Assembly: GCF_964199755.1 (NCBI RefSeq)
Contig: NC_133910.1
Span: 10,300,711-10,364,710, forward strand
Source of the DNA: Larus michahellis
Taxonomy: Eukaryota; Chordata; Aves; Charadriiformes; Laridae
Direction of reading: 5' to 3'
DNA length: 64,000 bases
The translations under genes were made by a program, and so were the position numbers. This document shows, in pieces, positions 8,845-64,000 of this stretch. The notes below the pieces were generated by a model that saw only the letters and a list, made by a program, of their open reading frames with translations, was not told where the DNA came from and ran no database searches. The first letter of the stretch is position 1. Every line of letters begins with the position of its first letter.

Positions 8845-11800
8845 GTAAGCGGGGCCGGGGGCTGCGGGGACCCGCCGGGGCTCGTCGGGCCGGGGGATGC
8901 GGGGACCGGCCGGGACGCACCGGCGGCTGCGGGGACCCGCCGGGCCGGGGACGCCGGGGGCTTGCGGGGACCGGCTGGGACCCGCCGGGCCGGGGATGCC
9001 GAGGGCTTGCGGAGACCCGTCGGGACGCACCGGGGGGCCGCGGGGGACGGCGGGGCCCCGGCTGACGGAGCCGCGGCGGCTCTGCCCGCAGTCGCAGCCC
9101 GACGGGGAGCCGCTGCCAGGCGCCCTGGAGAAGGAGGACGCCCGCTCGGCGCCCAGCACACCCTCCACGCCGTCCGTCTGCTCCCCGCCGTCCTCCTCCT
9201 CCTCCACGCCGTCGGCCGGCAAGAACGTCTGCTCCAGCTGCGGGCTGGAGATCCTCGACCGGTACCTGCTCAAGGTGAGCGGCGGCGGCGGCGACGGGGG
9301 TCGGCGGGGGGCGTCGGGCGGTCCCGGGTCTCAGCCCCCTTCTCTGCCGCAGGTGAACAACCTCATCTGGCACGTCCGCTGCCTGGAGTGCTCCGTGTGC
9401 CGCACCTCGCTGCGGCAGCAGCACAGCTGCTACATCAAGAACAAGGAGATCTTCTGCAAGATGGACTACTTCAGGTAGGGCAGGCGGGCCGGGGGGGTGG
9501 GGGCAGCTCCGCGCCGAAGCCCCGGCTCCGGGGGGCCTCAGCGTCCTCGCCGGCTGCCGAGGGGCCGGGACCGCTCCGGCGCTGACGGGACGGAGGTTTG
9601 AAAAAGCCGGCGGGCTCCGCGGAGCAGCCCGGCGGAGAGGCGTCCCCTCTGGGCACGGGGAGGATGGGGACTTGGGGTGCACCCGCACCCCCTCCCGGAG
9701 GGCTTCCGCCCCTCCCCGGGCTCCCCGAGCCCTGGCACGGCGGCCGGAGCCCCTCGGCTCCGCGGGGGTTGAGCGGCGGGGAATTGTCCCCTCGCCGGGG
9801 GAAACGCCGGCTGAGCGGCGTCGCCCCGGCTCCTGCCGGGAGGGTGGATGTGTGCCCAGCGGTGTGCGGCGCCGAACGGCCTTTGGAAGCCTCTGTCCGT
9901 GGGGCAGCATCGCAAACGCCGGAGCGTCCTTGGCCGGTGCGTGTTAGAGAACGGAGACAAACGCGCGGCAGCGCAGGTCCCCGCGGCCCGGCCAGGGCTC
10001 GCCGTGCGCCGTCGGTCCCGACCTTCATCCCCCGGGGGAGCGCGTCCTGCAGGGAGGCTGCTTCTGGCTCCGACAGCCTTTTGGTTTAAAACCTTAAACC
10101 ACGGTTTTTCCCCAAAAAGAGAGGCAGGGAGGGGATGGAGGATCCTGAGCTTCTCACTGGGCTTTAACTAAATATCAGAGCCCGCCGCTCTGACTTTCCC
10201 TATCCCGCCAGGATGAGGAAATGCTGTTCTCCCCGGGAGGAAGGGAGACGGCGGGCAGGCGATGAGAGTGACCCCGGCGAGGGCGCGGGGGGCTCGGCAG
10301 CGTCCTCCCGCCGCCGCGGAGCGCTCGGGGCCGCCTCCGGCGACAACGGTGCCGCGGGCAGGGCGTGCTCGGCAGGGAAAAAAACCCAACCTTTGAGATT
10401 TCTTTAGGGTTTGTTATCGGGAGGGTCTCCTAATACTCGCCACACCGCCGCTCGGCCCCCGTCCTGCCGGGCTCGGTGCCGCCGCGGGGTGCGCGGCTCC
10501 TCGGGCTCCGGCGCGGCGCTTCCCATCCGGCCCGGCTGTTACTGTTGGTGTCATTATTATTACTATTATTATTAAACCACTATTTTTTAGCGAATTCACC
10601 GAAATTTCCTTCACTTTCAAGTGAAAGGTTTAGGGAATTCCGCGGTGCCGTTGTGCTGCTTCAGGGCATTTCCAGCGTTTTTCATGAATTAACAACCGTT
10701 CCGATGCCGTTAATATTTTTAAAGTACGGACATTTCCGAAGGCGGTTTTAAAGTAGCGACTGGATCTCTAAATTGCCTTCGAGCAAATCCAGCGAATAAC
10801 ATCTGTTAAAAATAAACCCGTTGAGCTGGGAAGCCCCGCGCAGCAGCCCCCTCCCTCCGGGCCGGCGCGGGGTCTCTGCCCGCCGGGCACCGGCGATGCC
10901 GAAGGAAAACTAAAACGAAAATCGCTGCAGGCGCCGCAGGAGCCCCGCGACTCCCGAGCGCCTGGTTCGGGGGTCGGGGGGGCTCCCGGACCGCGCTTCG
11001 CACTTGCCTTTTTTGCTGAAAAATAGGGGTTGGATTTATTTTTTTTGGAGGGGTGAGTTGCCGTGCGGCGGGAGCGGCAGCGCTGGGAGCCGGGAGCGGG
11101 CGCGGGGAGACCCCGCTCCCCCCCGGCCCCCGGGTCCGCGGGGCTCGTTGCGACCCCCTACCCAGCCCCGGGCCGGACCCGCTGCGGGGGCGGCGGGCGG
11201 GGGTCGCTCCCGCAGCCTCCGGGGGCAGCCGCGGCGGATCCCGCCGGGTTGAGCCGCGCCGCCGCTGCCGTCGGTGACGGTCTGCGGCCGGAGCCGCTCG
11301 CCAGGGCCGGGGCGGGTCGGGGCAGACGCTCCCCGGTAGCCCCCCTGCAAACCCGGCTCGGGGACCGCTCGCCCGGCCCCGGCCCCCGGGAGCATCCTGG
11401 CCCGCAGCCTGGCGAGCCCGGGACAGCCGGGACCCAAAGGACAAGTCTGACTCTTGAGTTTTGTTTGGTTTTTTGGTTTTGGTTTTGTTTGTGGTTTTGT
11501 TTTTTTTAAATTTTATTTATTATTTGCTGCAGATGAAATGTGTGGGGTTTTTTTAAAGCAAAGCAGAAATCCCATCCTAACACGTGTGGGTCTTTGGAGC
11601 CAAGGCAGATGCGAAGGGGCGGTGGGATGCGCTCTGCGTGCAGCGCACGGCGGCTTTTATCGCACCAGCGCTGATTCCCGGGCAGCCGGGGCTGTTGGTG
11701 GGCAGCCGGGGCTGGGGGGCCGCCAGGCGTGGGGCCGTCCACGGACACAGCCCTGCTGCTGGGTGGGCGCTGCTGCCCGACGGTGGGTGCGTTTTGGCCT

Positions 11801-14800
11801 TGTCTGTCTGACCTTCTCTTCCCCGTGCACGTGAGGGGCTGCATAAGTGCTGGCGCTGCCGCGGCACCGCGGCCTCGTGTGCGTTTTTAAGCAAACGCTG
11901 CTGTTTCCTGTGTCTTGTCAAATAATTGCATTTGGCATCCAGGGCTCCAGTGCTTCGAGGAGAACCAAATTAAAATTGGAGCTCATTGAGCAGAACATTG
12001 TGTTCCCGGGCGATACGAGGGCTGCTCGCGGCCAAGCTCCCGCGGCTGCGGTCGCAGGGAGGCCCGGTGTGATCCCGGTGTGATTCCCGCAGCACCCCGC
12101 TGTAACGCCCATGGCTCTCTGCCTCACTGGGCAGCCCTTGGGCACACAAGCGTGGGGTTGCTGGCCCTGCTCTGTGTCCCTGGGGGCTGGGACAGCAAAA
12201 AAGCTGTGCTGTGGGTGGGCCAGCGCCCACAGCCCGGCTACAGCCCAGGTGGCTTCTGTTACCTCTTGCTGTCATGCCCTGCTGGGATGGTGCTCCTACT
12301 CGGGCGGTGCTGTGGCTCAGCATGGAGATGGACTCGCTGCGGCAACGCACCGCTGGTCTGCTGTGCGATTTGGGGTGATGTCTGGAAGCTGCAGCTGCAG
12401 CGTCAGGGGCTTCCCACAGAGCGGGCTCAGGAGGGGATGGGGACATGTGGGAGCTGTGGCCCTGGGAGCTGGGTGTCCCTTGCCCCATCCCTGCAGGCGG
12501 GGATGGACAGCAGGGCTCAGGGAGCTGTGGTGCCTGGATACAAGCGGTGTGTGAGACCCAGGACACACCAGGGCATCCTCCCACCTCTGCTCTTCTCCTG
12601 CGCCCCAGATGTTGCGGCCGCCCCTGGGGGAGGCGGGATGAATTTCTCTGGGATGAGTCTCTCTGGGATGACTCTTTCCTGGTAATGCTGTTGGCAGTTT
12701 CCATCTCCTGGTGCTAACGGTTGTGGAGAGCTGGCAGCATCTGCTCCCCTGACCACAAACCATGCGCACGGAGCCTGAGCCGATGGCTCTGCAGATGTTG
12801 GTGATGCCCTGGAGTGTGCTGCAGTGCTGGGTCCAGGGAAAGCCCCAGTTCTGCATCTCCTGCTGCAGTGCGACCCCATCCCCATCCCTGCCAGGCGGGT
12901 GGCAGGAGCCACAGGGAGCTCCTCGCTGCAGCCCCACGTGGTCAGGGCTCTTTGGGCTATTGCTGCCCCGTGAGCTCGGTGAACTAAAGTCTGTTTTATT
13001 TTTGAGCCGTTGTTTGCAGTGGCGACAGGTCAGGTCAGCCTGCTCGCAGGCGTTTCTCTCCCCGTTCCTGCATCCCTGGCGGTGGCAGTCCCTGCGGTGG
13101 CGGTCCCTGCAGGGGTGGTGTCTGTTGGGTGGCAGCAGGTGCCCGTGCCCAGCCCTGGCTCAGCCTGGTTTCTGTAAAACCTGATGGCCGCGGTTGGTGC
13201 TGGCGGCAGGTGTTGGCCAAGAGATGCAGGCGCAGCATCGGCGATTGCTGGTGCCGCAGCATCCGCAGCGACCGCAGCCTCCACGCCTGTGTCTGGCTGC
13301 CGAGCATCGTCCTCTTGCCGGGTGCTGCTCGTGCGGTGGCTCTGTGGGGGACAGTGGTGTCACCCCCCACCTGTGCTGGCTGCTGCATCCCCACGAGCCC
13401 CCGTGCCCTCGGCAGCCCCTGCCCCGTTCCCTGGGCACCAGCGCCAGCCTGGGCTGGGGGGACACCGTGCTGGGGGGACACCATGCTGGGTGCCCCCCCA
13501 GATCCCAGCTGGTGTGTGATGAGGATGGGAGGTGTGACCTTTCCTGCGCGGTGCCCTGGGCCTCAGTTTCCCTCAGTTCTGGAGGCACAGGGACGTGCCC
13601 GTCCCCGGGACGTGCCCCCCCTCCCCGCATCAGGCTGTGATTCGAGTGGGGAGCGGCGATTACCACGTGCTATTAGCTCGGTAAGCCTGCCCCTCGTTTG
13701 GTACCGTTCAGCAAGTACGACTGTTTACATAGCACATTGTTCAAAGTAATTCAATTTACAGGAATGATCTTTACTTCTAAATAAAAAATTAATACAGTTC
13801 TTTTGTTTGTGCGTTTATATAAACGAGCTGGCACACAGTCAGTTTACAATGTTCCCATCTGAAGTAAATTAGTGAAGTCTCTTAGCTAAGTCTCTGTATA
13901 ATTTCAGCACAGAAATATCCTCTCTAAGGCAGCCCTTTTAGGTTTGCTTTTTTTTTATTTTTTCCCTTCTTTCTGGTCAGCTATGGTCAGGCTGAAAAAT
14001 TTAAACCTTTCTTTTCCTCCCAAATAGTTTTGCAATTAGTAATTCCAGCACAGGACGGTCTTTCTGCATCTCGCCGAGCCCATGGCGGGCGGCAGCTCTG
14101 CGGTGGGGGGCCGGGCGCGGGCAGCGTGCCCCAGCTGCGGTGGGCTGCCCTGGGCTGCTCTGGCCACCCCAACGCGAGGGGCTCGCGGTGCCGGGGGTCT
14201 CCTGCCGCTTGGTGCGGTCGCCTCTTCTCGATATTTTGTGCCGGCGCTGAGCGATGCCGGGGCTGCTCGGGCAGGGTGGCAGAGGGTGGCAGTGGCTCCG
14301 CACCCTGCCCTGTGTAGGGTCAGGACTGCGGGGCCCAGCTGCGGTGGGGGCTGAGTGGGAGCCCCCGGGGAGCCAGAGGCCACGGTGATGGGTGCGTGGG
14401 GAAGCGCAGCGGCTGCGACGAGGGCTGTGCGGGAGCCAGCACCAGCGCTGCGGTGATGCAGGAGGTGCTTGCTTCTCCCCTGCTGCTCTTGCTGCTGCTC
14501 CTTGCATATATTTTTTCAAGCAGTGGTAATGCTAAAACAGAAGCCAAACCAAGGCTGTGCCTGACCCTGCCTGCACTGCGGGCAGCACTCCTGGCCAGCG
14601 CTGGCCCAGAGATGCAGGGCCACGGGGGCCACGTCTGCTGCTTCCCGTGTCCTGGCAGAAATGGGATTTTTCATAAGTGCATGTATTTGCCCAGTGCCCG
14701 GCACGGGGCTCCTGGCCGCCTTGTTGCCTCTTCATTGCACTGAGCTACTTTCCAGCATAACTCACTCGGGCGCGATCATCACCCTCTCACAGTGAGGAGA

Positions 14801-17800
14801 CTCCTCGTAGGAGGAAAAAGCAGATGCGTGCGGCTCTATGTGTGAGGAGAAAACACATGTTTTGATTTATGGCAACGGGAGAGAACCGGCTCTGACACAG
14901 TTTTCATCCCAGTCTCACACTGGCTGTTATCAAAATAAAAAGCCCACGGGCCTGGAAGCTGATTCATGGCGCTGCGTCACCTCAGCCCCTCGGTCGCTGG
15001 CGCCGCTGGGCTGCGGCGCGTCACGTCCCACTCCTACCCACGCCGCTGCCTGCACCGCTGCCCATGTCGCTGCCTGCACCGCTGCCCGTGCCGCCCTGCC
15101 GTGGGGGAACGGCACCGCTGGGGCGGCTTTGCTGCAGCTCTTTCCCTGCATGGGTGTTGTGGGATTTGGGTGGGATGGGGCGAGCAATGGGGCTGGCACC
15201 CTCCTGCCCTCACCCTCCTGCCCTCACCCTGCCTCTTCTCCTCCCGCAGCCGGTTTGGTACAAAGTGTGCCCGCTGCGGCAGGCAGATCTACGCCAGCGA
15301 CTGGGTGCGGCGAGCGCGGGGCAACGCCTACCACCTCGCCTGCTTCGCCTGCTTCTCCTGCAAGCGGCAGCTCTCCACCGGCGAGGAGTTCGGCTTGGTG
15401 GAGGAGAAGGTGCTGTGCCGGATTCACTACGACACCATGATAGAGAACCTCAAGCGAGCGGCGGAAAACGGTACGCAGCCCCAGCGCCGTGGTCGCGGCC
15501 TTGCCCCTGGCTGTCCCTGTCCCCCACGCTGACCCCATCACAGGGTGCCGGGGCCGGTCCTGTCATCGCCAAAAGGGGGTGATGGGTGGCCCCAGGGGAA
15601 GCCGAGCATGAGACCCTGGGCTGGCAGAAGGCTCCTGGGGGTGACCAATGTGCCAGCAGTGCCTGCGGCTCGTGGGAGCCGTGCCTGAGCCTGTGAGCCA
15701 TGGGCAATGCTGAGGACAAGCCGCCGGTCCCATGCAGCCCGGTGCGCCATGTGCAGCGGGTGAGGAAGCCACTGGGATTTTGAAGCTGTGAGTCATAAAT
15801 CTAGAAGGTGGGAAAGCTGGCGATCCGACAAAACCTTCCCATGATTTTCCACCCGCCCTGCCCGTCCGGGGACACGCCGCTCCCAGCTGGACCGCACCAC
15901 ACGCTGCCGTCCCCACCACGGCACGCCACGAGCCGCCGGCCAGCCTCCGCTTTCCCAATCAAGTCCCACTCCCGCCGGGGCTGGGCTGGTGACCCCGAGG
16001 TCATGCAGCGCAGCATCCCCCTTCCCGTGGCCACGGCCCAGCCCCATCCTCTGGTGTGGCAGCGGCCAGAGAGATGCTCGGAGGAACAAATTGGTGGGGT
16101 TAATCCAACATGGTGCATGGGCCAGGCAGTGCCAGGGCTGTCCTGCGTTGGAAAGCACCTGAGATATAGTGATATGGCAGTGATCGCAGCTCGGGGGAGC
16201 CAGCGGCCTCCTGGGCTCCAGCCCTCTGTGCCCCTCGCTAGCGCTTGGTGGGCACAGGGAGGCAAACGCCGTGTCCCGGCCTGTGCAGCATGTGGAAACC
16301 ATTAACAACCTGACATGAAAATAATCAGCGTTTCTGTTTACAGCCTTTGAGTAAGAGGATGCGAACAGAGTGCCCAGTTGGGCTGGGAGGGTCTCGGCTT
16401 GGGCCGCGGCTCATGGCATCTTGGTCCATATGGTCGGCTGCTGCTGCGGCGTGAGCGAGGCAGAGGGGAGTGGGGACGGAGGGGGAGAAGCCGCGTGGCC
16501 GGGAAGAGCAGGCTGGTGCGAGGACGGAAGGGTCTGGCGCCGAGGGGTCCCACAGAGCTGTTGCACCAGCCCAGGGCTGGCGTGGTGGGTTTGCTGCGGC
16601 TCGTAGGGTCCTGCTGGTGTGGGCTGAGCCCCACCGTGTCAGGGCAGCGCTGGAGCACATGGTGAGTGTCCTGTGTGGGTACCTGTGCCCAAGTGTCCCC
16701 TGGTTTTGAGAATGGGATGGGATCGCTCTGGAGAGCTGCAGTTGCTGAGGAGTTGGAGAGCCATGCTCCCCCCCCCTCCAGTAATTACCCAGCAATTTCT
16801 TCTGCACATGAGGTTTTACATAGAAGAAAAATAAACAGATGTTGCTGAAGTCAGAGTCCCATTCATCATCCTAAAAGAACAAGTCAAACTATATGAGAAA
16901 GTCCTTCAACTCAAGCCAAGACAATCACAGCCCAGTCCAGCTTGCAGAGCGAGCGCCGGGTTGTGCAGGCGCATCCTGGGAGCAGGGCAAGCGCCAGCCC
17001 CGCTCCGGCATCCTCCCTCATCCATCACTCACCACTGCTTCACCCGCACTGCCGGGAGCAGCCGGGCCGGGCACGATGCGGGCTGCACTGGGCACCCTGG
17101 CGAGGACAGAGGGACCCTGGCTCTGGCCACCCCCCTGCAGGCTCCGTAGCTGTGCGAGCACAGCTGGGCTCACCCCGATGCTGTGCTTGGCAAGTGGGTG
17201 GACAGCCTCCCCCCTCGGTGTGTCCCCCATAGTGTGGTTGCTGCTCAGAGCATGGGCACCCCAAGGCCATGGGGATGGCACTGCTCCTGCTGTTGCTCCA
17301 GGAGCCAGGAGGAGGAGGTCAGGGTGCCGGGAGGATTTGGGGCCAGGGGAAGGAGCAAAGAGCCCATTGAAATGCTCTGAGCAAATGAAACGACTGATGG
17401 AGGCAGCGCCCGCAGGGGAAGATGGGGTCATGGGGAGCAGCACAGGGCAGGAGTGATGGATGTCGGTGAGCCTGGCGGAGGCAGGGTCCCCTTCTGAGCC
17501 ACTCGCTGGTGGACACGGCCAAGTGGTGACCGCGAGTCAGGGCCAGCAGAACATCACCTCGAAATCCATCTTCCTGCTGCCGTTTCCCTGTTCCTCATTC
17601 CCCGCATCTTCCACCAACTTGCTGCATTTTTCTTAATTCAACAGTAAAGTCCTCGGGGCGGGCAGTGTCCTGAAGGGGCTCAGCAGCGGTGGTGGCTCCA
17701 CTCTCCCTGCTACTGCTGGCAGCAAGGGATGCTGCGCTGCCCCACGCCACCACGTCAGGCGTGTTGTCCCCTGGTTGAGCGTCCGTTGCATGCTGGGGTG

Positions 17801-20800
17801 GGCAGGGGGGTTTCCGACCTGCGGTGCACGGGGCTTCTCTCTCGTAGGCAACGGGATCACGCTGGAGGGGGCTGTGCCCTCGGAGCAGGACAGCCAGCCG
17901 AAGCCGGCCAAGAGGGCCCGCACCTCCTTCACCGCCGAGCAGCTGCAGGTAGCGGGGCTGGGCTGGGGGGCCGGGGGGGGCTGCGGCTCCCCGGCCTCAT
18001 CCTGACCCCCTCTCCCTTCTCTCCCCCCCAGGTCATGCAGGCACAGTTTGCTCAGGACAACAACCCCGACGCACAAACGCTTCAGAAGCTGGCGGACATG
18101 ACGGGGCTGAGTCGGAGAGTCATTCAGGTGAGGGGTGGGCAGGGTGCGGGCACCATCAGCTGAGCAGGGCCAGGGAAGGGGGCAGAGGATGTGCAACAAA
18201 AGGCTGGTGCTAGCCAGGGCTCACGTCCCTGTAGCCCCTCGCTCCCGCACATCAACCCCGGGACTTGTCGCATCCAGCAGCTTCATGCTCCCTCACCAGC
18301 TTTGCCGGGTCCCATAGCGATGCCAGCACCATCCTTTTTCTGTCTCGCTCATGGGTTTTCTATTTGTTTTTCCCTCTCATGATGCAATGAAAATTCCATC
18401 CCATACAGCCCCAGCCTGCCCCAGTACATTTCCGGGTGGGAAAGCTGCTGTTAGCCTGCTGCCCCAGAGCCCCGTGCTCTGCCCGGACAGCCGGCATGGC
18501 AGCATGGGCTCTTCCCGGCAGCCATCCTGCCGGAGCAGGCAAAGCCAGCTGCTTCGGGAAGCACTGGGATTGAGAAGTTTAAAGAAAAAGGGGTTTTGCA
18601 GCCCCAGGGGAAGCGGTGGCAGGAAAGTCCCCGCGCTCGCTGTCGGGGAGGGGAGGGAGAGCAGCGCTGTGGGGACCCGGAGAAATGTCCTCTCTGCAGC
18701 TCCCTGCTCGCCCTCCCCGTAGACAGCCCAGCTTTGCTCCCTGGTGACATTTATACTCTTCACTTTAATGTTCTGCTGACATACTTTCCACATACAATAA
18801 AAACATAAGCGATTAAAATAAATTTGGAGCTTTCATCCAGGATTGTTTTGCCAACGACACGTTTAAATTTCGTGTGTGAAAAACTGGCTCGAGCCTCAGT
18901 TATTGAGATTCTTCATTTAGCTAAAGATCAAGCAGTCTGCACGCTGGGCTATTTTTTATGTGGATATTTTTTAAAGGCACTTTGAACAGGAAACAATTTG
19001 TCAAATGCTTACGACTGTTTCCTTCTCTGTGGTCCAGCATGCGTGGCCTCAGAGAGCTGATCTTCTCTCAGTCTTGGAGAAGATTTTTACTCCCAGCTAT
19101 CTTTCAAAAATTAAAGCATAAGAAAGAAATCACCACATTAGCATAGACCCCCCTCCATGCATGTATTAATTCTAGGATGTAATCCCCTAACTATTCCTTT
19201 AATTAGAAGCAGCGAGATATGGTCAGGGAGCTCATACCTGCTGCTCAGATGGAGTAGGACTATATCCCACAGTACCCTCCTTTCTCAGCTTTAATGTTCT
19301 GCTGATGTGGTTTTTGAATACAGTAAACCACAAGTGATTAAACCAATATTGTTTTCATTGTTCCTGAAGTCACATCTTCTTCTAGTCTAAGCTTTTGCGT
19401 CCCCTTGCCTTGCCAATGCTCGCACATTTCCCAGCCGATCTCCGCCGTGCTTTTAGGCCAGGCTAGCTGGGGTTGAACCTTAAGATCTAAATAAGACCCT
19501 GAAGGGTGTTCCCATCATTTGCCGTGGAAGCCATGCAGGGCCGAGGCTTTCTGCCTGCAGGGATGGATGAACCCAGCCAAGGCTCGGGTACGGGGGGTGT
19601 TTCTGCCCGGCCGCTCCCCCAGCCAGTGCCATGCCGTTCCCAAGAGCTTCCACAGCCCTTGGAGCTCAGGGAGCAGCTTGCTGTTAAAATTATTTCAGTG
19701 TGGAAAGGAATAGTGTGACCATTAATGTGAGTTTCTGCATCCCCTAGTCCGAGTGTTTCATTCAGTGACTCCTGCGACAACCTTGGAAGTTTTAATTACC
19801 CTAATAAAAAATGGTGTTGGTTTTGACCAAGAGAAATTAATAGTAGAGATGCCACTTTGGGCACCCTAATGTCTGTACTATCTTGAGACAGAACTCTTGC
19901 TCTAGTGAGTGTACAACAAAGCTTCGGAAGCCAGTGGAGTGCTGGTGAGGTATTTCAGCGTGTGGATTTCTAAATTTGAGTCCTTTTTTAAAAATATTTA
20001 GAAGAGACACCCATCATAGGGCCTTGGTGAAGGACCACACTTCAATCCAATTGTCTCTCCGTTGACACAGGGTTTGCTGCTTGTGTTTCAGGTTTGGTTT
20101 CAAAACTGCAGAGCCCGCCATAAAAAACACACCCCCCAGCACACGGTGCCGCCCTCGGGAGCTCCCCCGTCCCGCATCCCTTCTTCGCTCTCCGATGACA
20201 TTCACTACTCGCCCTTCAGCAGCCCGGAGCGGGCCCGGATGGTGACGCTGCACGGATACATAGAGAGTGAGTGGGTGCCGGCGGGTGCGGCAGCGGGGTG
20301 CTCGGGATGGCGGGGCAGGGGGGTGCTCCCGGGAGCAGTGGTAAAAACGCCCTTGTACTCTCCTGCACGTCTGGTGCACACACTCCTCCTCCTCCTCCTC
20401 CCCCTCATGGTCTGAGGATTTTCTGAAGGGCTGTTTACGGGGAAGCCCCAGATGAGAGAAGGAGGGGAGAGGGGACTGCAGCCTCTTTCCCTCCGTACCT
20501 CAGCCCCAGAAAAATCACTGCCAGGGTTTTCCCCGACTGGTCCTTGGCCCTCCTTGTGTTTTCTTTGTCATGGAGAAGAGGCGTGAATGTGCCTGGCTGA
20601 GCTCGATGGTCAAGTGGTCTCCTTCCTGCTCACAAGATCAGAGTTGCTTTCTCTAACAGCTGCCAAGTGCCGGTGAGGTGAATCATTTGCGAGTGGCAGG
20701 CGGCTTTGGTCATGCCTGGATGGAGGTTTTGGCTCCGTGACTCTTGTGAAGCTTCTCCCTTCCCTTGCCCACGCAGGCCGTGGTAAAATGTGGCTCCTGC

Positions 20801-27249: not shown

Positions 27250-40884
<13,635 letters not shown>

Positions 40885-41059: not shown

Positions 41060-41110
41060 ATGCCCGGCTCCCTGCAGGTGCCCTCCCTGGAGGAGCTCGA
41101 CGTGCAGGAG
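41060..41110 (+). CDS. NDUFA8: NDUFA8 exon 1
   Basis: Encodes [17 protein letters not shown]; the donor is caggag/gtgagt, phase 0. The start codon context is good (gccgccATGC). Confidence 0.95.
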
Positions 41111-43115
41111 GTGAGTGAGCGACCGCCGCCGCCGGGCCCTTCCCCCGCCGGGGCAGCGCGGCGGGCCGGCGCCGAGGCGGGCCGCCCCCATCGCCGCTCT
41201 GCCCCGCTGTAGGTGACGGTCAGCTCGGCCGTGCTGAAGGCCGCGGCCCACCACTACGGCGCGCAGTGCGACCGGCCCAACAAGGAGTTCATGCTGTGCC
41301 GTTGGGAGGAGAAGGACCCGCGCAAGTGCCTGCGGGAGGGCCGCCAGGTCAACCAGTGCGCCCTCGACTTCTTCAGGTGAGCGGGACGCCCCCAGCCAGG
41401 CTCCCCCCGCGGCTGCCCGCCCGAGGCCTCCTCTGCCATGAAGGTGAAGGTGTTTCGGGGGGTCTCCTGCTGTAGCGCGTCCTTCCGAGCTTTGCTATTC
41501 CAGCGGTGTCAGCCAATGGGCTTAATTTAAAATTCTGCTACCATACGGCCTTCGGAGTCTTTATTGTTGCTTCTTAAACTTTAGCTCTTGAGAATAGAGG
41601 CTGTGTCCTTTGTTGTTTTCTTTTATCTATTTATACTTTAATTTACCCTTTCATATGAAGCACCATGGCCTCTGCTTCAGAGCAGGTGGCTCAGGTTTTT
41701 GTTGGGTTAGCAACAGAATGCGGGGGTGTGGTGGACGGCTTGCTGCTTCTGCATCTTGCATCTGTGTTATGAAATACAGGAGACGGACCTCTGCTTTGCA
41801 TTGTCTCTCCTCTCTGTTTTGTGCTCAAGTAGACACACAATTTAGCTCTTGTGACCAAAAAATGTAGATCAAGGCATGTGCCAGTGTCATGTTCTGAAGT
41901 TGCTAGGAAAAGGCCTAGTTTAATTATCTCAAAGCATGTCCGCTTCGAGTACAGCAGCTAGTAATGGGGAACCTCTGTCCTAAGCATGTCTTCATGAGTT
42001 TGAGACACCAAACTAATTTGGAAGCATTGTATAAAGTACACTAAGTTACTTGGCAAAGCAGGGATCCCATATAGAGGAGCTGTGTACATCTACGGAACAA
42101 GAATACCTTCCATGTATTAGTTAAGTTACTGCTATCCATACTTGTAGATACAGCGGTACAAATTTTACTGGTATTGGTATGAAGTTCTGTATAATGATGC
42201 TTCAAATATTGACTTCTCTGAAGACTTTAAATGTTCCTGAGAACTTAAAACTACAGAAACACTTTATCACAAGTTGAGGTTTGGATGACTGAGAGAGAAA
42301 AACATTAAATTTACAACACTTGCTAACAGTTTTCTTCCTGTCATCTCTTTCTTACAGGAAAATTAAGACGCACTGTGCGGAGCCATTTACTGAGTACTGG
42401 ACATGCATTGACTATACCAACTTGCAGGAGCTCCGTCGATGCCGAAAGCAGCAGGCAGTATTTGATAACTGTGTGCTGGAGAAATTGGGTTGGGTGAGAC
42501 CTGATCTGGGACAGCTCTCTAAGGTAACTTCATACCTTCGTGATCAGATCTCCCTTCTTATGGACATTTAAGTCCAGACCAGTCTCAGACTTTTCTCCCA
42601 AACAGAATGCGATTTGTGAACTCAGCACTGGAAGCTTGTGGACTTTACTAGAAGTCAGGATTCTGTCAGTGTTCTCCAGAGCTGCTTTCCAAGAAGATTT
42701 GCACTTAAACAGCGCCACTTACTCTTATGTTTTTGCTCTTTCTAGTGCAGAGACCTTTCCTTTAGGGATGAAGCTCACACACATGTAGAACCATTCTGTA
42801 GTTATGAGTGAAATGCACCTCTCCTCCCTTTTTTTAGAAGTACTGTGGAGATAGGAGCTCTCATCAGATCAACAGTGTGTCGTTTGGTACTTCATGGTAG
42901 CTCTTCGAGTTCTGACTCAATCTAGCTTTTCTATTAAATGCTGTGAGAAGTCATATCACTTCTTTTTTTCTCTCCAGGTCACAAAAGTGAAGACAGACCG
43001 TCCAATGCCTGAGAATGCCTATCACTCTAGACCTAGACCAGAGCCAAATCCACCCATTGAAGGAGAGCTGAAGCCTTCTCCGTTTGGCAGTAGGCTCTTT
43101 TTCTGGTCCTGGTAA
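41060..43115 (+). CDS. NDUFA8: NDUFA8, mitochondrial complex I accessory subunit
   Basis: Four exons, 41060-41110, 41213-41376, 42358-42523 and 42978-43115, encode 172 residues, the same length as I remember for the human protein. Cysteines form twin CX9C motifs: C36/C46 with C56/C66, and C78/C88 with C100/C110. Each pair makes a CHCH hairpin, oxidised after import by the MIA40 pathway. The protein (also called PGIV/19 kDa subunit) sits on the intermembrane-space face of NADH:ubiquinone oxidoreductase and is needed for its assembly. The C-terminus is proline-rich and ends [10 protein letters not shown]. No cleavable presequence is evident, as expected for CX9C proteins. It shares its promoter with MORN5. 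Confidence 0.97.
41213..41376 (+). CDS. NDUFA8: NDUFA8 exon 2 (first CHCH)
   Basis: The acceptor is gctgtag/g and the donor is cttcag/gtgagc. It carries cysteines 36, 46, 56 and 66, including [11 protein letters not shown]. It ends two bases into an arginine codon. Confidence 0.96.
41377..42977 (+). other. NDUFA8 introns 2 and 3 (41377-42357 and 42524-42977)
   Basis: Ordinary AT-rich introns. No other gene or mobile element is recognised. Confidence 0.8.
42358..42523 (+). CDS. NDUFA8: NDUFA8 exon 3 (second CHCH)
   Basis: The acceptor is tcttacag/g and the donor is ctaag/gtaact. It carries cysteines 78, 88, 100 and 110 ([25 protein letters not shown]). Ends in phase 0. Confidence 0.96.
42978..43115 (+). 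CDS. NDUFA8: NDUFA8 terminal coding exon
   Basis: The acceptor is tctccag/g. It encodes [20 protein letters not shown] and onward to RLFFWSW, with stop TAA at 43113-43115. Confidence 0.96.
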
Positions 43116-54101: not shown

Positions 54102-54242
54102 GATGGGTGGGGATGGGGATAGGGATGGGGATGGGGATGGGGATGAGGATGAGGATGAGGATGGGGATGAGGATGGGGATGAGGATGAGGATGAGGATGA
54201 GGATGAGGATGAGGATGAGGATGAGGATGAGGATGAGGATGC
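54102..54242 (+). repeat. GGGGAT/GAGGAT hexanucleotide repeat
   Basis: About 23 tandem hexamers. The left end is mostly ggggat and the right end a pure run of gaggat. It creates open frames of Asp/Glu, Met-Arg and His-Pro repeats in different frames that are not genes. Confidence 0.95.
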
Positions 54243-58110: not shown

Positions 58111-59088
58111 AAAAAAGTTTCTTTGCATGAAGGAAGCATAATACGAGGCTGGGCTGGAAGTGCCCCCTCCCCGCGCGGGTGGCCCCCCCCCAGGCAGATG
58201 TCTGTGGTGGGCCTGGGGAAAGGGCTCCTGGCCACGTCCTGCTGGAGGCTGCGCCCGCTCCAGGGAGGGATGCGGAGTGGCTCTGAGATCTCCGTGGAGG
58301 TCTTGGGTCCATCCAACCCCTCCAGGGCTGAGATGGGTCCCCCTCCCTGCATGGGGGGACAGTCTCGCAGGGTCCCCATCCGTCCTGGAGCCTCTGTGAT
58401 GAATTGTCCATGGGTTCCTTCCCCACCTCGGAGGGGCTGGGGCCAGGGTGCTACAGAGGGCAGGGGTCTTTTTCCCCTTCTGGCCACGGGCAGCCCCCAT
58501 GGGCACCCCTGGCACGTGGCCGGTCCCATCCCATCCCACCCCACAGGCTTTGCCACCCGCCTGTGACTCTCCTCCTCCCCCGGCGGCACTCCCATCCCGC
58601 CTGCTGGTGCCGGGGTTTATTTCAGGAGCAGAAATGGGAGCAAGGAAGGGCAAAGGGGGTGCGTGGGGAGTGGGGCTGTGCCCGGGGGCTGCGGCAGGCA
58701 GCAGCGTTCGGTGCCATGAAGCACCGCGTGGGGGCTGCTGGGCTCGGGGTGTGGGGGGGTGTTGCATTGGAAATGGGCCCCATCCCTGACCGAGGAAGCC
58801 GTCCCCTGCGTGGGGACATGTCTGGGGACATGGGACCTGCTGTCGCTGGCACTGCGAGGGGGAGCAGAGGGGGCTGCTGGGACGCGTGTTTGAAGTGGGG
58901 AGGGTGCAGGGGAGCAGGCTGGCGGCTCAGGGCAGTCTTCATTCCCAGAAGGGATCTTTCTTCTTTGGGAATACCCAGGGGGTCCCCAATCTGCACCTGG
59001 GGATGGTGGCTCGGGGCTCCCGGCACACAGGCCCCCACGGGGCAGAGACCACAGCGCCTACTCTGCAAATCAGACACCTTTATTTTTT

Positions 59089-59128
59089 TTCTTTAAAAGT
59101 CAGTTACCAAACTGCAGTGTACTTTATT
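59089..59128 (-). terminator. Poly(A) signals of the NOS1AP-like gene
   Basis: Two minus-strand AATAAA signals, at 59128-59123 and 59094-59089, lie about 1.35 kb past the stop codon. They would define a 3' UTR from 60476 to about 59070. Confidence 0.6.
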
Positions 59129-60476: not shown

Positions 60477-60966
60477 CTAAGGGGGAACCCTGCTGGGGGC
60501 CCCGGCAGCATCCAGCTCTGGTTCAAGCAGCTCATCTTCTGAGAAGCTGATGTGCAAGCAGGTGTCATCCGCAGGGGAGAAGGGCAGCGTGAGGTCCGTG
60601 GGGCTGGCCAGGGCGGCCAAGTCCTTGGCCAGGGCCTCGCTGGCTGCAAGGTCGCGGAAGCCAGCCAGGGGGGACATCTGCCCACTCTCTCCAGTCCTGT
60701 CCTTGCCCAGAGCACGCTGGCAGGTCCCAGCAGGGACAGGCTCCGTGCCGGAGGCAGCGCTCCGTGCGGGAGTCCTTGCCTCAGGGTCCAAGAGGGTGAG
60801 CGAGCTGGCAGCGATGTTGGTGAGGCTGGAGATGCTGGGGCTGGGCAGGCTCATGTGGGCAGCACTCTCGGGCTTCACCTCCGCTTCCAGGCTCGGGGAG
60901 GTCTTGCTTGACCTTTTGCGTAGGATGGGTGGTGGTGGGTTGAGCTTGGGAATGGGCTGCTGCCGC
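60477..60966 (-). CDS. NOS1AP-like terminal coding exon D
   Basis: The acceptor is ctctccag/g. It encodes [20 protein letters not shown] and onward to an acidic end ([20 protein letters not shown]), with stop TAG at 60479-60477. The [20 protein letters not shown] stretch suggests a disordered, phosphorylatable tail. Confidence 0.8.
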
Positions 60967-63260
60967 CTGGAGAGCAAAGGCAGAGAGATGAGGTGACAGG
61001 CAAGGTACTTACCTGTGTGGAGGGCTCAGGCTGGCTGCTCCAGGCTCTCCAAGAGACCTTTGCTGGGTCCCATCGGTGCAACCCATCACCTACAGACGAT
61101 GGAGTGGGGGTGAAGTGATGCAGCATCTTGGTGAATGACCATCTGGCGGCAGGGGGACAGAAGCAGGGCAGGCAGTGACCCCACTGGGAAACACGGCGGG
61201 TTCCTTGCCCTGCCTTATTGCACCTGAGCCAGCGCACAGCCCCTGGGCTGCCTGTCCCTGCCCCTGAGCGCCCAGAGCACAGCTCTTCCTCCCCAGACCC
61301 TGCTGCTGGCTCTGCTGCCGTGAGCACTCTGAAATGTGGCCGGGGCAGCAGCGACGAGCAGGAGGGTCTGCTCAGGATGTTCCTGTTCCGGCCAGTGGGA
61401 GACAGAGGTGGCACATCCTACCTGTCCTCGTCCCCTTTGTCTGTATCATCTGCCTTCTGCCGGCTGCTCCCATTGAGCAGAGTGAAGTCGCTGACCTCGG
61501 AGCCCTCCACGCGCCGGCTGAGCCCGTCCTGACCCTCCAGCACAGCCAGGCACTCGTCCCCCTCCTTGCTGCTGTAGCGGTGGCCGCCCCTCTCCAGGCT
61601 GACGAGGTTGAGGTAGGAATCCCCGGGGCCCAGGGCTGGCAGGGATCCGGGGGCCACGGGGCTGCCCAGGATGCTGGCGGGAGTGGAGGTGGACGGCAGA
61701 TGGACGTCCAAGCTGTAGTGGTTCTTCAGGTTCAGGGAGAGGGACTGAGCCAGGGACAGGTTTTGCAAGGAGCGGTCAACTGGCAAGAGAGGGACAAGGG
61801 TTGTGTGAAGAGCTGGGGACCTCCAGCCCAGCTGCTCCCCATGACCGCGAGAGGTGCTCTGCACCTCCTCCAGAGCCTGCTGGGATGGTGTTGGGAGCAT
61901 CCCAGCTGCTCCCTGGGACTGCAAGGGATGTAGAAATTCTCCAAAGCCCCCCCCGAGCTTGCCAGGATGGTGCTGGGAGTGCCCAGCTGCTGCCCAGTAC
62001 CGCGAGGGGTGCACGGATGCTCTGAAGGCCCTATGGAGCCTGCTGGGATGGTACTGGGAGCACGCCAGTTGCACCACGAGGGGTGCAAAGATGCTCTGAT
62101 GCCCCCCAGAGCCTGCTGGGCTCATACTGGGAACACCCCAACTGCTCCCTGGGACCATGAAGGGTGCAGAGATACTCTGAAGGGATGGTGCTGGGCGCAT
62201 CCCAGCACCAAAACAACCCCCGTGCGGGGGCCGCTGCGCTCACCCGGCTGCCGGTGTTGCTCCCGGGCTTCCAGCACCGTCAGCTGCCGCACCAGCAAGG
62301 AGACGTGCTGCAGCAGGTCCCGGTTGGTCAGGAGCAGCTGCCGTACCCGGGCCTGCGCTTCGATCCGCGCCGCCGTTTCGGCCGCCAGTTGGTCCTTCAG
62401 CAGCTGCACCTGCGGGACGGGACGGGACGGGGCGGTGCGGGGACGGGACCGAGCATCCCCGGGATCCCCGGCATCCGCGGCGCGGCGGCCCTCGAGCGCC
62501 CTCTGCCGGCCCCGCCGCGGCACACCCCCCCCCACCGGCACCCACCCGCCGGTATCCCCCCCCCTACCCCGGCACCCCCCGAGCCGGTCCAGCTGCGGGC
62601 GGGGGGATGCCGCTCCATCCCGGGCCGCGGGAGGTAGGGGCGGGGGGGTCCGCTGCCTCCTCGGTAACATGAAACGAGCTGGGGAGGTGCTCAGGCGGGG
62701 GGGCATCGGCCTCCCCACTGTGATACCGGTTTGGGGGAAGAGGCGCAGGGCGGGGTGGCTTCCAAAAATGTTATGAATGGGGAGCTGGTGGCTCTGTGGA
62801 GCTTCCTCACGACCCCGCTAGAGCAGCCGGGGCTTATGTGTGCAGCCAGCTTCATGTCTGGGGGTGCTGAGCCATGCCGCGAGCCATGCTGCCAGCTGTG
62901 CCACAAGCGATGCTGTGAACAGTGCCGCTAGTGATGCTGCGAGCTACGGCGCAAGCAATGCTGCGAGCTCCCCATACCGCTCCCACCCCAGCACAGGGCG
63001 CTTGCCCCCCGCTGCCAGCCCAGCCTGGCTGGAGGCTGGGGCAGGGAAAGCAGAAGGGCTGGTGGCGCCCGAGGGGAGGGCAGGACGCGTACCTGGGCCA
63101 CGGCCACCTGCGTCTGCTGCTGCTGCTGGAGGAGCTGCTGCTGGAGCAGCTGGAGGCAGTGCTGGGAGGCCAGCGGGGTGATGGAGGCCGAGGAGCAGGG
63201 GCTGCTTGGGCTGAGCAGCTGCTGGGAGCCAGCCGGGTGGAGGGAGCAGTTCTCGGTGTC
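60477..63260 (-). CDS. NOS1AP-family protein (3' part), paralogue of the nNOS adaptor
   Basis: Four minus-strand exons, 63260-63093, 62409-62244, 61779-61422 and 60966-60477, encode the C-terminal 393 residues with continuous phase (0, 1, 2). The first two exons carry the coiled coil [14 protein letters not shown] then [20 protein letters not shown] and [11 protein letters not shown], which nearly duplicates the NOS1AP segment. The last exon has [17 protein letters not shown], like the PPPPI-x-RKR motif I remember from the C1orf226 part of NOS1AP read-through forms. NOS1AP is a cytoplasmic adaptor with an N-terminal PTB domain and a C-terminal PDZ ligand for neuronal NO synthase. Here the C-terminus is ...GAPSRVPP, so that ligand is absent, at least in this splice form. 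The PTB exons would lie past 64000. I take it for a separate paralogue, because the NOS1AP tail differs and NOS1AP itself has different neighbours in human (1q23). Confidence 0.82.
61422..61779 (-). CDS. NOS1AP-like exon C
   Basis: The acceptor is tcttgccag/t and the donor is gacag/gtagga. It encodes [20 protein letters not shown] and onward to DDTDKGDED, a Ser/Leu-rich, probably disordered segment. I recognise no domain. Ends two bases into an arginine codon. Confidence 0.75.
61808..62205. repeat. Irregular minisatellite filling a NOS1AP-like intron
   Basis: Five diverged copies of a G/C-rich unit with core gagcctgctgggatggt...ctggga start near 61881, 61964, 62044, 62116 and 62182, spaced 66-83 bases. 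They occupy most of the 464-bp intron between exons B and C. Confidence 0.8.
62244..62409 (-). CDS. NOS1AP-like exon B (coiled coil)
   Basis: The acceptor is cccgcag/g and the donor is agccgg/gtgagc. It encodes [20 protein letters not shown], then [20 protein letters not shown] and [15 protein letters not shown]. Heptad leucines and near identity to NOS1AP make this the diagnostic exon. Ends in phase 1. Confidence 0.9.
62867..62970. repeat. 12-bp tandem repeat with 24-bp superperiod
   Basis: Units such as gcgagccatgct, gccagctgtgcc, acaagcgatgct, gtgaacagtgcc, gctagtgatgct and gcaagcaatgct follow each other without gaps. Ends alternate between atgct and tgcc. The repeat lies in the intron between exons A and B. 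Confidence 0.8.
63093..63260 (-). CDS. NOS1AP-like exon A (Ser-rich segment, polyQ, coiled-coil start)
   Basis: The acceptor is atgcccag/g and the donor is gcccag/gtacgc; 56 codons, phase 0 at both ends. It encodes [20 protein letters not shown] and then a Gln-rich run ending [15 protein letters not shown]1AP has the same exon end. Confidence 0.85.
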
Positions 63261-64000
63261 CTGGGCATAAAGAAATGGGCAGGGTGAGCAGACCAACTAG
63301 CTCAGGCTGGGATTTGGCTCGTGTTTCCCCATGGCATTGACACTGGTGTCGCAGAGCGACCCTGGGACTGTCGAGGGGGGCAGCCCTGGGCTCGGTATCA
63401 GGCTCTGCGCGTCTGTGTCATCCCCAGGAGAGCATGTTTCGGAGTGACTCCTGATCTCCGAGAGCTGGCACGGCTGCATTGTTGGCATCTGGCTGCAGCT
63501 CCAATCAGGGAGGGCAGATCCCTGGGCAGGAGGCACTGGGGAGCGACCTAAATATCCCACCACCTTCCCCATGGTGCGGCTGCCGCAGGCTGGGTGGTTT
63601 CTTATTGCCTGAAGCATTTCCCAGTGGCAGCAGCGCCCCGTGTCAGGGCCACCAGCATATTGAAAGACTGCAGGGGTCCCGGCCCTCGGAGATGCCCAGC
63701 GTGAGAAGGGCAGTGCACGCGCCGACCGACTTCAGCAGCCCCTGACCCAGCCGCGAGCCCCCGCACCCCGGCACGGCGCTGGGCCTGGACTCTGCCGGGG
63801 CAGCCCAGGGCGAGTGAGCTCGCAGCCACCTCCCGTGCCCCGGGGACTGCGTGGTGGCCCCGTGCGTGGCTCTCCTGGCCCTCGGTAGCACGGTGGGGTC
63901 TCAACATGCAGTGCAGAGCTGGGCAGTGCATCCCCCTGGCAGGCAGCCTCCCACCTCACAGCGGGGGTGTTTTGGGACCGTTCCCCCAGCCGCTGCCTTT
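63261..64000 (-). other. Probable intron of the NOS1AP-like gene
   Basis: GC-rich sequence upstream of exon A. I see no PTB-domain exon or other recognisable coding segment before the window ends. Confidence 0.55.

Follow-up and report, generated by a model that had tools for sequence, protein, structure and literature searches.

A second NOS1AP-family gene beside NDUFA8 in the gull Larus michahellis, probably an ohnologue of NOS1AP

Results

Four exons of a second NOS1AP-family gene

We analysed a 64,000-nucleotide stretch of the Larus michahellis genome (the window; C19:10300711-10364710, where C19 denotes contig NC_133910.1) and found on its minus strand, between positions 63260 and 60477, four exons (A to D) of a second NOS1AP-family gene of this species. 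Coordinates without a contig name are window positions.

Exon A, 63260-63093, minus strand: corresponds to NOS1AP exon 8 and encodes the Gln-rich beginning of the coiled coil; 168 nucleotides (nt), phase 0-0; splice sites CCCAG/GTACGCG
Exon B, 62409-62244, minus strand: corresponds to NOS1AP exon 9 and encodes the main coiled coil; 166 nt, phase 0-1
Exon C, 61779-61422, minus strand: place and phases (1-2) of C1orf226 exon 1
Exon D, 60966-60477, minus strand: last coding exon; place and phase (2) of C1orf226 exon 2; TAG at 60479-60477
Possible end of the 3' untranslated region (predicted), 59079-59128, minus strand: AATAAA at 59128 and again at 59084 (start positions), with one more at 58621

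These exons have AG/GT splice sites and compatible phases, and they form a single open frame over all three joins. The third codon position has the highest GC content in all four, with third- to second-position values of 0.96/0.45, 0.89/0.35, 0.86/0.46 and 0.76/0.58 in A, B, C and D, the contrast being smallest in D. A Pfam search of the window exons and a PDB search of A+B returned chance-level matches only, except for a sub-threshold match to DUF4628. The intron between B and C carries imperfect tandem repeats of 73-81 nt at 61873-62140.

Exons A-D are the last four of 11 exons that we spliced by hand into a minus-strand gene running from C19:10396541 down to 10361187. The gene contains 640 codons with no internal stop and has AG/GT at all ten introns; its seventh exon (e7) and the acceptor of that exon were chosen to fit splice sites, phase and length. 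From N to C terminus, the predicted protein consists of a PTB domain, a variable linker, the coiled coil and a long tail. The PTB/PID domain is complete, scoring 112.3 bits against PF00640, and among solved structures its sequence comes closest to the PTB domains of GULP1 and an LDL receptor adaptor. The first Met stands in the context GCCGCCATGC. No PTB exon was found inside the window, either among the ten open reading frames examined or by tblastn, which gave no PTB match below E 2; the PTB exons lie beyond the window end, up to C19:10396541. From the sequence, we conclude that a second NOS1AP gene, intact, has its 3' portion in the window.

Comparison with canonical NOS1AP

Searches of the bird's own genome covered the Larus michahellis assembly of 1.405 Gb in 616 contigs, and the human NOS1AP, C1orf226, NDUFA8, MORN5 and LHX6 queries were sequences entered by hand; the NOS1AP query has a PTB domain of its own that scores 112.5 bits against PF00640. 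This query gave 20 genomic matches up to E 10. Eighteen of these fall below E 0.001: 10 cluster on the plus strand of contig C12 and 8 on the minus strand of C19, each set at a single locus. The remaining matches are at E 0.2 and E 4. The C12 gene is the canonical NOS1AP, 493 residues long and ending DEIAV, and its EIAV exon is matched at E 7e-56. Because the canonical NOS1AP with EIAV sits on C12, the C19 gene is a paralogue and not a moved orthologue.

The two genes share their exon structure. Exons e1 to e6 are equal in length (105, 72, 93, 59, 109 and 142 nt in both), as are e8 and e9 (168 and 166 nt), while e7 measures 161 nt in C19 and 164 nt in C12; phases are identical at every join, so that all nine phases and eight of nine lengths agree over e1-e9. 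Eight C19 exons match NOS1AP in both sequence and exact length, and e7 matches by phase and near length only. Behind them, C has 358 nt against 268 nt in its C12 counterpart (o1), and D has 490 nt against 493 nt (o2). Canonical NOS1AP (CAPON) is thus like the C19 gene in its PTB domain, linker and coiled coil and in the number, phase and mostly the length of e1-e9, but differs from it in its EIAV last exon, which was not found at C19.

Over e1-e6, 155 of 193 residues are identical between the C19 and C12 proteins. The proportion of nonsynonymous differences (pN, 0.109) is far below that of synonymous ones (pS, 0.667), indicating purifying selection on these exons. Exons A+B match the human NOS1AP query at 63 of 97 residues (E 2e-15), a score that none of 1000 shuffles reached. 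Within the coiled-coil stretch, the C19 protein is identical to the human query protein at 57 of 78 positions and to C12 NOS1AP at 58 of 78, and the latter two are identical to each other at 76 of 78. A genome search with exon B returned its own place on C19 and the C12 NOS1AP, with 73% identity between the two.

Much of what the initial annotation had claimed is borne out by these results: the gene belongs to the NOS1AP family, as judged from the A+B similarity, the upstream PTB exons and the PID score; it is a second copy in a species that keeps the canonical one; and the extension past position 64000, proposed as a way of finding a PTB domain, did uncover one, so that the doubt attached to missing PTB exons falls away. 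The description of the coiled coil as almost residue for residue that of NOS1AP was generous, the identical positions being 57-58 of 78.

Exon 4 of C12 NOS1AP (C12:30231254-30231269) has two AG acceptors 15 nt apart, and use of the upstream one would add LLSLQ, much as in the LLLLQ insert of human NOS1AP. In exon 4 of the C19 gene, the corresponding distance is 22 nt, and splicing at the upstream AG would shift the frame.

The tail exons and C1orf226

On C12, C1orf226 lies as two exons 5.7 kb behind NOS1AP, scoring 89.3 and 77.8 bits against DUF4628 (PF15429), and these are the only two DUF4628 matches in the genome up to E 10. Human C1orf226 also follows NOS1AP (PMC9576154), and the human isoform NOS1APc is described as the PTB domain, exons 7-9 and the two C1orf226 exons (PMC11607453). 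The first-exon acceptor of the C12 C1orf226 (C12:30244720-30245580) is in phase with NOS1AP exon 9, so that a long form of the human NOS1AP-C1orf226 type is open in the gull genome too; such a join of C12 exon 9 with the C1orf226 exons leaves 612 residues open, and the product scores 173.6 bits against DUF4628.

Exons C and D have the same phases, 1-2 and 2-stop, as the C12 C1orf226 exons, C joining exon 9 in phase 1 and D joining C in phase 2. Exon C opens V-D-R-S and its C12 counterpart M-D-Q-S, and exon D reads P-K-L-N-P-P-P-P-I from its sixth full codon where the C12 exon reads P-R-L-D-P-P-P-P-V from its eighth. The C19 tail therefore resembles C1orf226 in its place behind the coiled-coil exons, in its phases and in the motif P[KR]L[DN]PPPP, which both have early in the second exon. 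On the other hand, the C12 first-exon stretch SQHLRNLGKAVGAK has no counterpart in exon C, and exon C has Leu at the place of the first Met of C1orf226. Aligned to the human C1orf226 query, C+D gives a BLASTP E of 8e-6, and its score was reached by none of 1000 shuffles and, with the proline block kept in the shuffles, by none of 2000; exon C by itself was equalled by 11 of 1000 shuffles, and exon D against C12 o2 by 13 of 2000.

The initial annotation had stated that C and D differ from NOS1AP. This holds with respect to the canonical last exon, but their place and phases are those of the C1orf226 exons, as in human NOS1APc. The C19 gene is like NOS1APc in joining a PTB domain and exons 7-9 to two further exons, and it differs in that the long form is apparently its sole form and in that its tail sequence is mostly unlike C1orf226.

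No EIAV exon found at the C19 locus

The predicted C19 protein ends PSRVPP, with no PDZ ligand of the EIAV kind. In the window, the canonical last exon of the NOS1AP query gave no match below E 0.3, and none of the six frames contains [ED][IL][AS]V before a stop. A search of 113 kb of C19 with the same exon yielded nothing at E<=1, and genome-wide the exon was matched on C12 only. EIAV is reported to be invariant among the vertebrate NOS1AP orthologues of one study, whose text does not name chicken, and to be lacking in the invertebrate ones (PMC3276551). With no EIAV exon found on C19, neither a nitric-oxide role for this gene nor the earlier label of a nitric-oxide-adaptor-like gene is supported. 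A last exon that we missed, diverged or lying elsewhere, could still make the gene an adaptor of nitric oxide synthase. A diverged exon may escape tblastn, and the two exons past the coiled coil already show how fast this region diverges; given the empty searches of the window, of the 113 kb of C19 and of the genome outside C12, we consider this improbable.

Gene neighbourhood and its counterpart on C12

The gene order on C19 is LHX6, MORN5, NDUFA8, the NOS1AP paralogue, a TTL gene and a DAB2IP-type gene, the first three lying in the window.

LHX6, 9230-20130, plus strand: best tblastn match at E 6e-48, the queries being LIM and homeodomain stretches
MORN5, 27286-40767, minus strand: four tblastn matches to the human query protein, E 6e-21 to 6e-6
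NDUFA8, 41060-43109, plus strand: tblastn matches to the human query protein at E 2.6e-31, 2.4e-29 and 1.9e-18

The TTL-domain match, one of 32 in the genome, lies at C19:10422515 on the plus strand, and we take it to be TTLL11 from its family and the human gene order. The C19 paralogue (start C19:10396541) and this presumed TTLL11 stand head to head, and the layout could mean shared upstream regulation. Human is not known to have a NOS1AP-type gene between NDUFA8 and TTLL11.

DAB2P_C matches were found at C19:10485636, at C12:23356324 and on C258, and PBC-domain matches at 8.98 Mb of C19, at 25.09 Mb of C12 and on C29. On the same grounds of family and human gene order, we assume that the DAB2P_C genes are DAB2IP (C19) and RASAL2 (C12) and that the PBC genes are PBX3 (C19) and PBX1 (C12). 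Both pairs tested from the 1q/9q33-34 paralogon thus have one copy on C12 and the other on C19, as do the two NOS1AP genes. In the human genome, PBX1 and LMX1A are placed on 1q and PBX3 and LMX1B on 9q33, PRRX1 (1q) and PRRX2 (9q34) are assigned to one paralogon, and the partner of LHX6 is located on 1p31 (PMC2211742); 9q33-q34 and 1q21-q25/1p11-p32 are named among four paralogous regions (PMC1309616).

Other features of the window

The window gave no hit against Rfam at the gathering threshold and none in a tRNA scan, and pattern searches for a CR1 tail and for strict MORN repeats gave no match. A pair of open reading frames at 54.1-54.4 kb with a strong third-position GC contrast proved to be a hexanucleotide repeat: a (GGATGA)n array of 21.8 copies occupies 54111-54241, and the long open frames there result from it.

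Discussion

Taken together, these observations suggest, at a rough probability of 0.7, that Larus michahellis has an intact second NOS1AP gene on C19 that is an ohnologue of the canonical gene, is made in the long form only, and would act in a junction complex without tethering neuronal nitric oxide synthase. The C19 gene probably dates from the early vertebrate genome duplications and sits on a block of the 9q33 type, and it is mainly the synteny that makes an ohnologue the best reading.

Several results weigh against this reading. As to origin, we built a PTB tree of the human NOS1AP query, C12 and C19, with GULP1 and LDLRAP1 as the root. Its best order pairs the human sequence with C19 (approximately unbiased test, p-AU 0.811; bootstrap 52), ahead of the order that an ohnologue would predict, at p-AU 0.327, and of the one joining C19 to C12, at p-AU 0.123; none of the three is rejected. 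Of the 20 e1-e6 sites that distinguish the human sequence from C12, C19 has the human residue at 7, the C12 residue at 3 and a different one at 10. As to structure, e7 of C19 is no more like e7 of C12 than expected by chance (302 of 2000 shuffles), and exon B shows no more helical periodicity than shuffled sequences do (1177 of 5000). As to the tail, exon C shows no likeness to C12 o1 above chance (516 of 2000 shuffles); with the proline block masked, 99 of 2000 shuffles reached the score of the tail against C1orf226, and with the block kept, 25 of 2000 reached that of exon D alone. C+D scores 13.5 bits against DUF4628 (E 0.058), under the Pfam cut-off of 26 bits, and this Pfam match vanishes once the proline run is masked; A-D scores 7.3 bits (E 4.4), and the whole C19 protein does not match DUF4628 at E<=1. 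Searched against the genome, C+D gave 7 matches up to E 10, which include its own exons but not the C12 C1orf226. The sequence evidence for a C1orf226-type tail is modest when taken alone: the likeness is weak and mostly lies in one motif of exon D, and it is position and phase that carry the case.

The C19 gene might instead be a younger duplicate of NOS1AP, produced by a segmental duplication in sauropsids or birds that landed in the sister block by chance. This would agree with a tree that leaves the C19-C12 order standing, and with the one coiled-coil site and the three e1-e6 sites at which C19 has the C12 state against the human one. Informative sites of the coiled coil give C19 no agreement with human and one with C12, and we regard this count, like the 7 against 3 of e1-e6, as only suggestive of age. 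Against a young age, synonymous sites are near saturation, the pS of the NOS1AP pair in the gull genome being like that of the RASAL2/DAB2IP-type exon pair (0.673; the PBX pair has 0.908). Moreover, the C12 and human coiled coils have stayed nearly identical while C19 is about equally distant from both, and the C19 contig also holds partners of other genes on C12, as judged against the human map (PMC2211742, PMC1309616). We consider a younger duplication unlikely. The block duplication proposed in the initial annotation keeps the support of the duplicate partners (PBC, DAB2P_C) on C12, and the rooted tree neither rejects nor favours it.

Decay of an ohnologue into a pseudogene would account for exons C and e7, which lack likeness to their C12 counterparts beyond chance. 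It would have to be reconciled with 640 open codons over 11 exons, intact AG/GT at every intron, a pN/pS far below 1 in e1-e6 and the AATAAA signals downstream, and we think it very unlikely. That the C19 gene is a translocated orthologue and the only NOS1AP of the species, as family membership alone would allow and as the initial annotation had named as its possible refutation, is refuted by the complete canonical gene with EIAV on C12 and keeps next to no probability.

The C19 protein is most likely a cell-junction or polarity adaptor or scaffold. This role is drawn by analogy with human NOS1APc, which is located at cell-cell junctions and co-precipitates SCRIB, VANGL1 and KANK1 (PMC11607453). 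In such a mechanism, the gene would make only the long, NOS1APc-like form, whose PTB domain may bind polarity partners of the Scribble kind. The coiled coil would pair with itself or with another helix, and further partners would be recruited by the tail, giving a complex assembled at cell-cell junctions. With no EIAV exon found at its locus, the protein would not tether neuronal nitric oxide synthase.

The long isoform of NOS1AP has been studied for Scribble/Hippo signalling, and NOS1AP for the QT interval, schizophrenia and nephrotic syndrome (PMC11607453). In the titles and abstract openings that we searched, no NOS1AP paralogue or ohnologue pair is named, although automatic annotation of such a gene in gene databases is likely; the word nos1apa is the name of an isoform in one paper that uses it.

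C1orf226 is counted as a separate gene in human. Because the paralogue has two exons of the same place and phases within one gene, we suggest that C1orf226 began as the 3' end of NOS1AP. A wider scenario, to which we give slightly less than even odds, would start from an ancestral NOS1AP with two alternative ends. The 1q copy would have kept both, and the 9q33-type copy only the C1orf226-type end, becoming a polarity or junction adaptor; mammals would have lost the latter and rely on NOS1AP splicing, and birds would keep two genes. If mammals do lack a C19-type gene, it would be a further duplicate from the two-round (2R) genome duplications lost on the mammalian line. A gene apparently fixed in the long form would represent a natural separation of the two jobs of NOS1AP, and a species with two genes could show which functions need the link to nitric oxide synthase.

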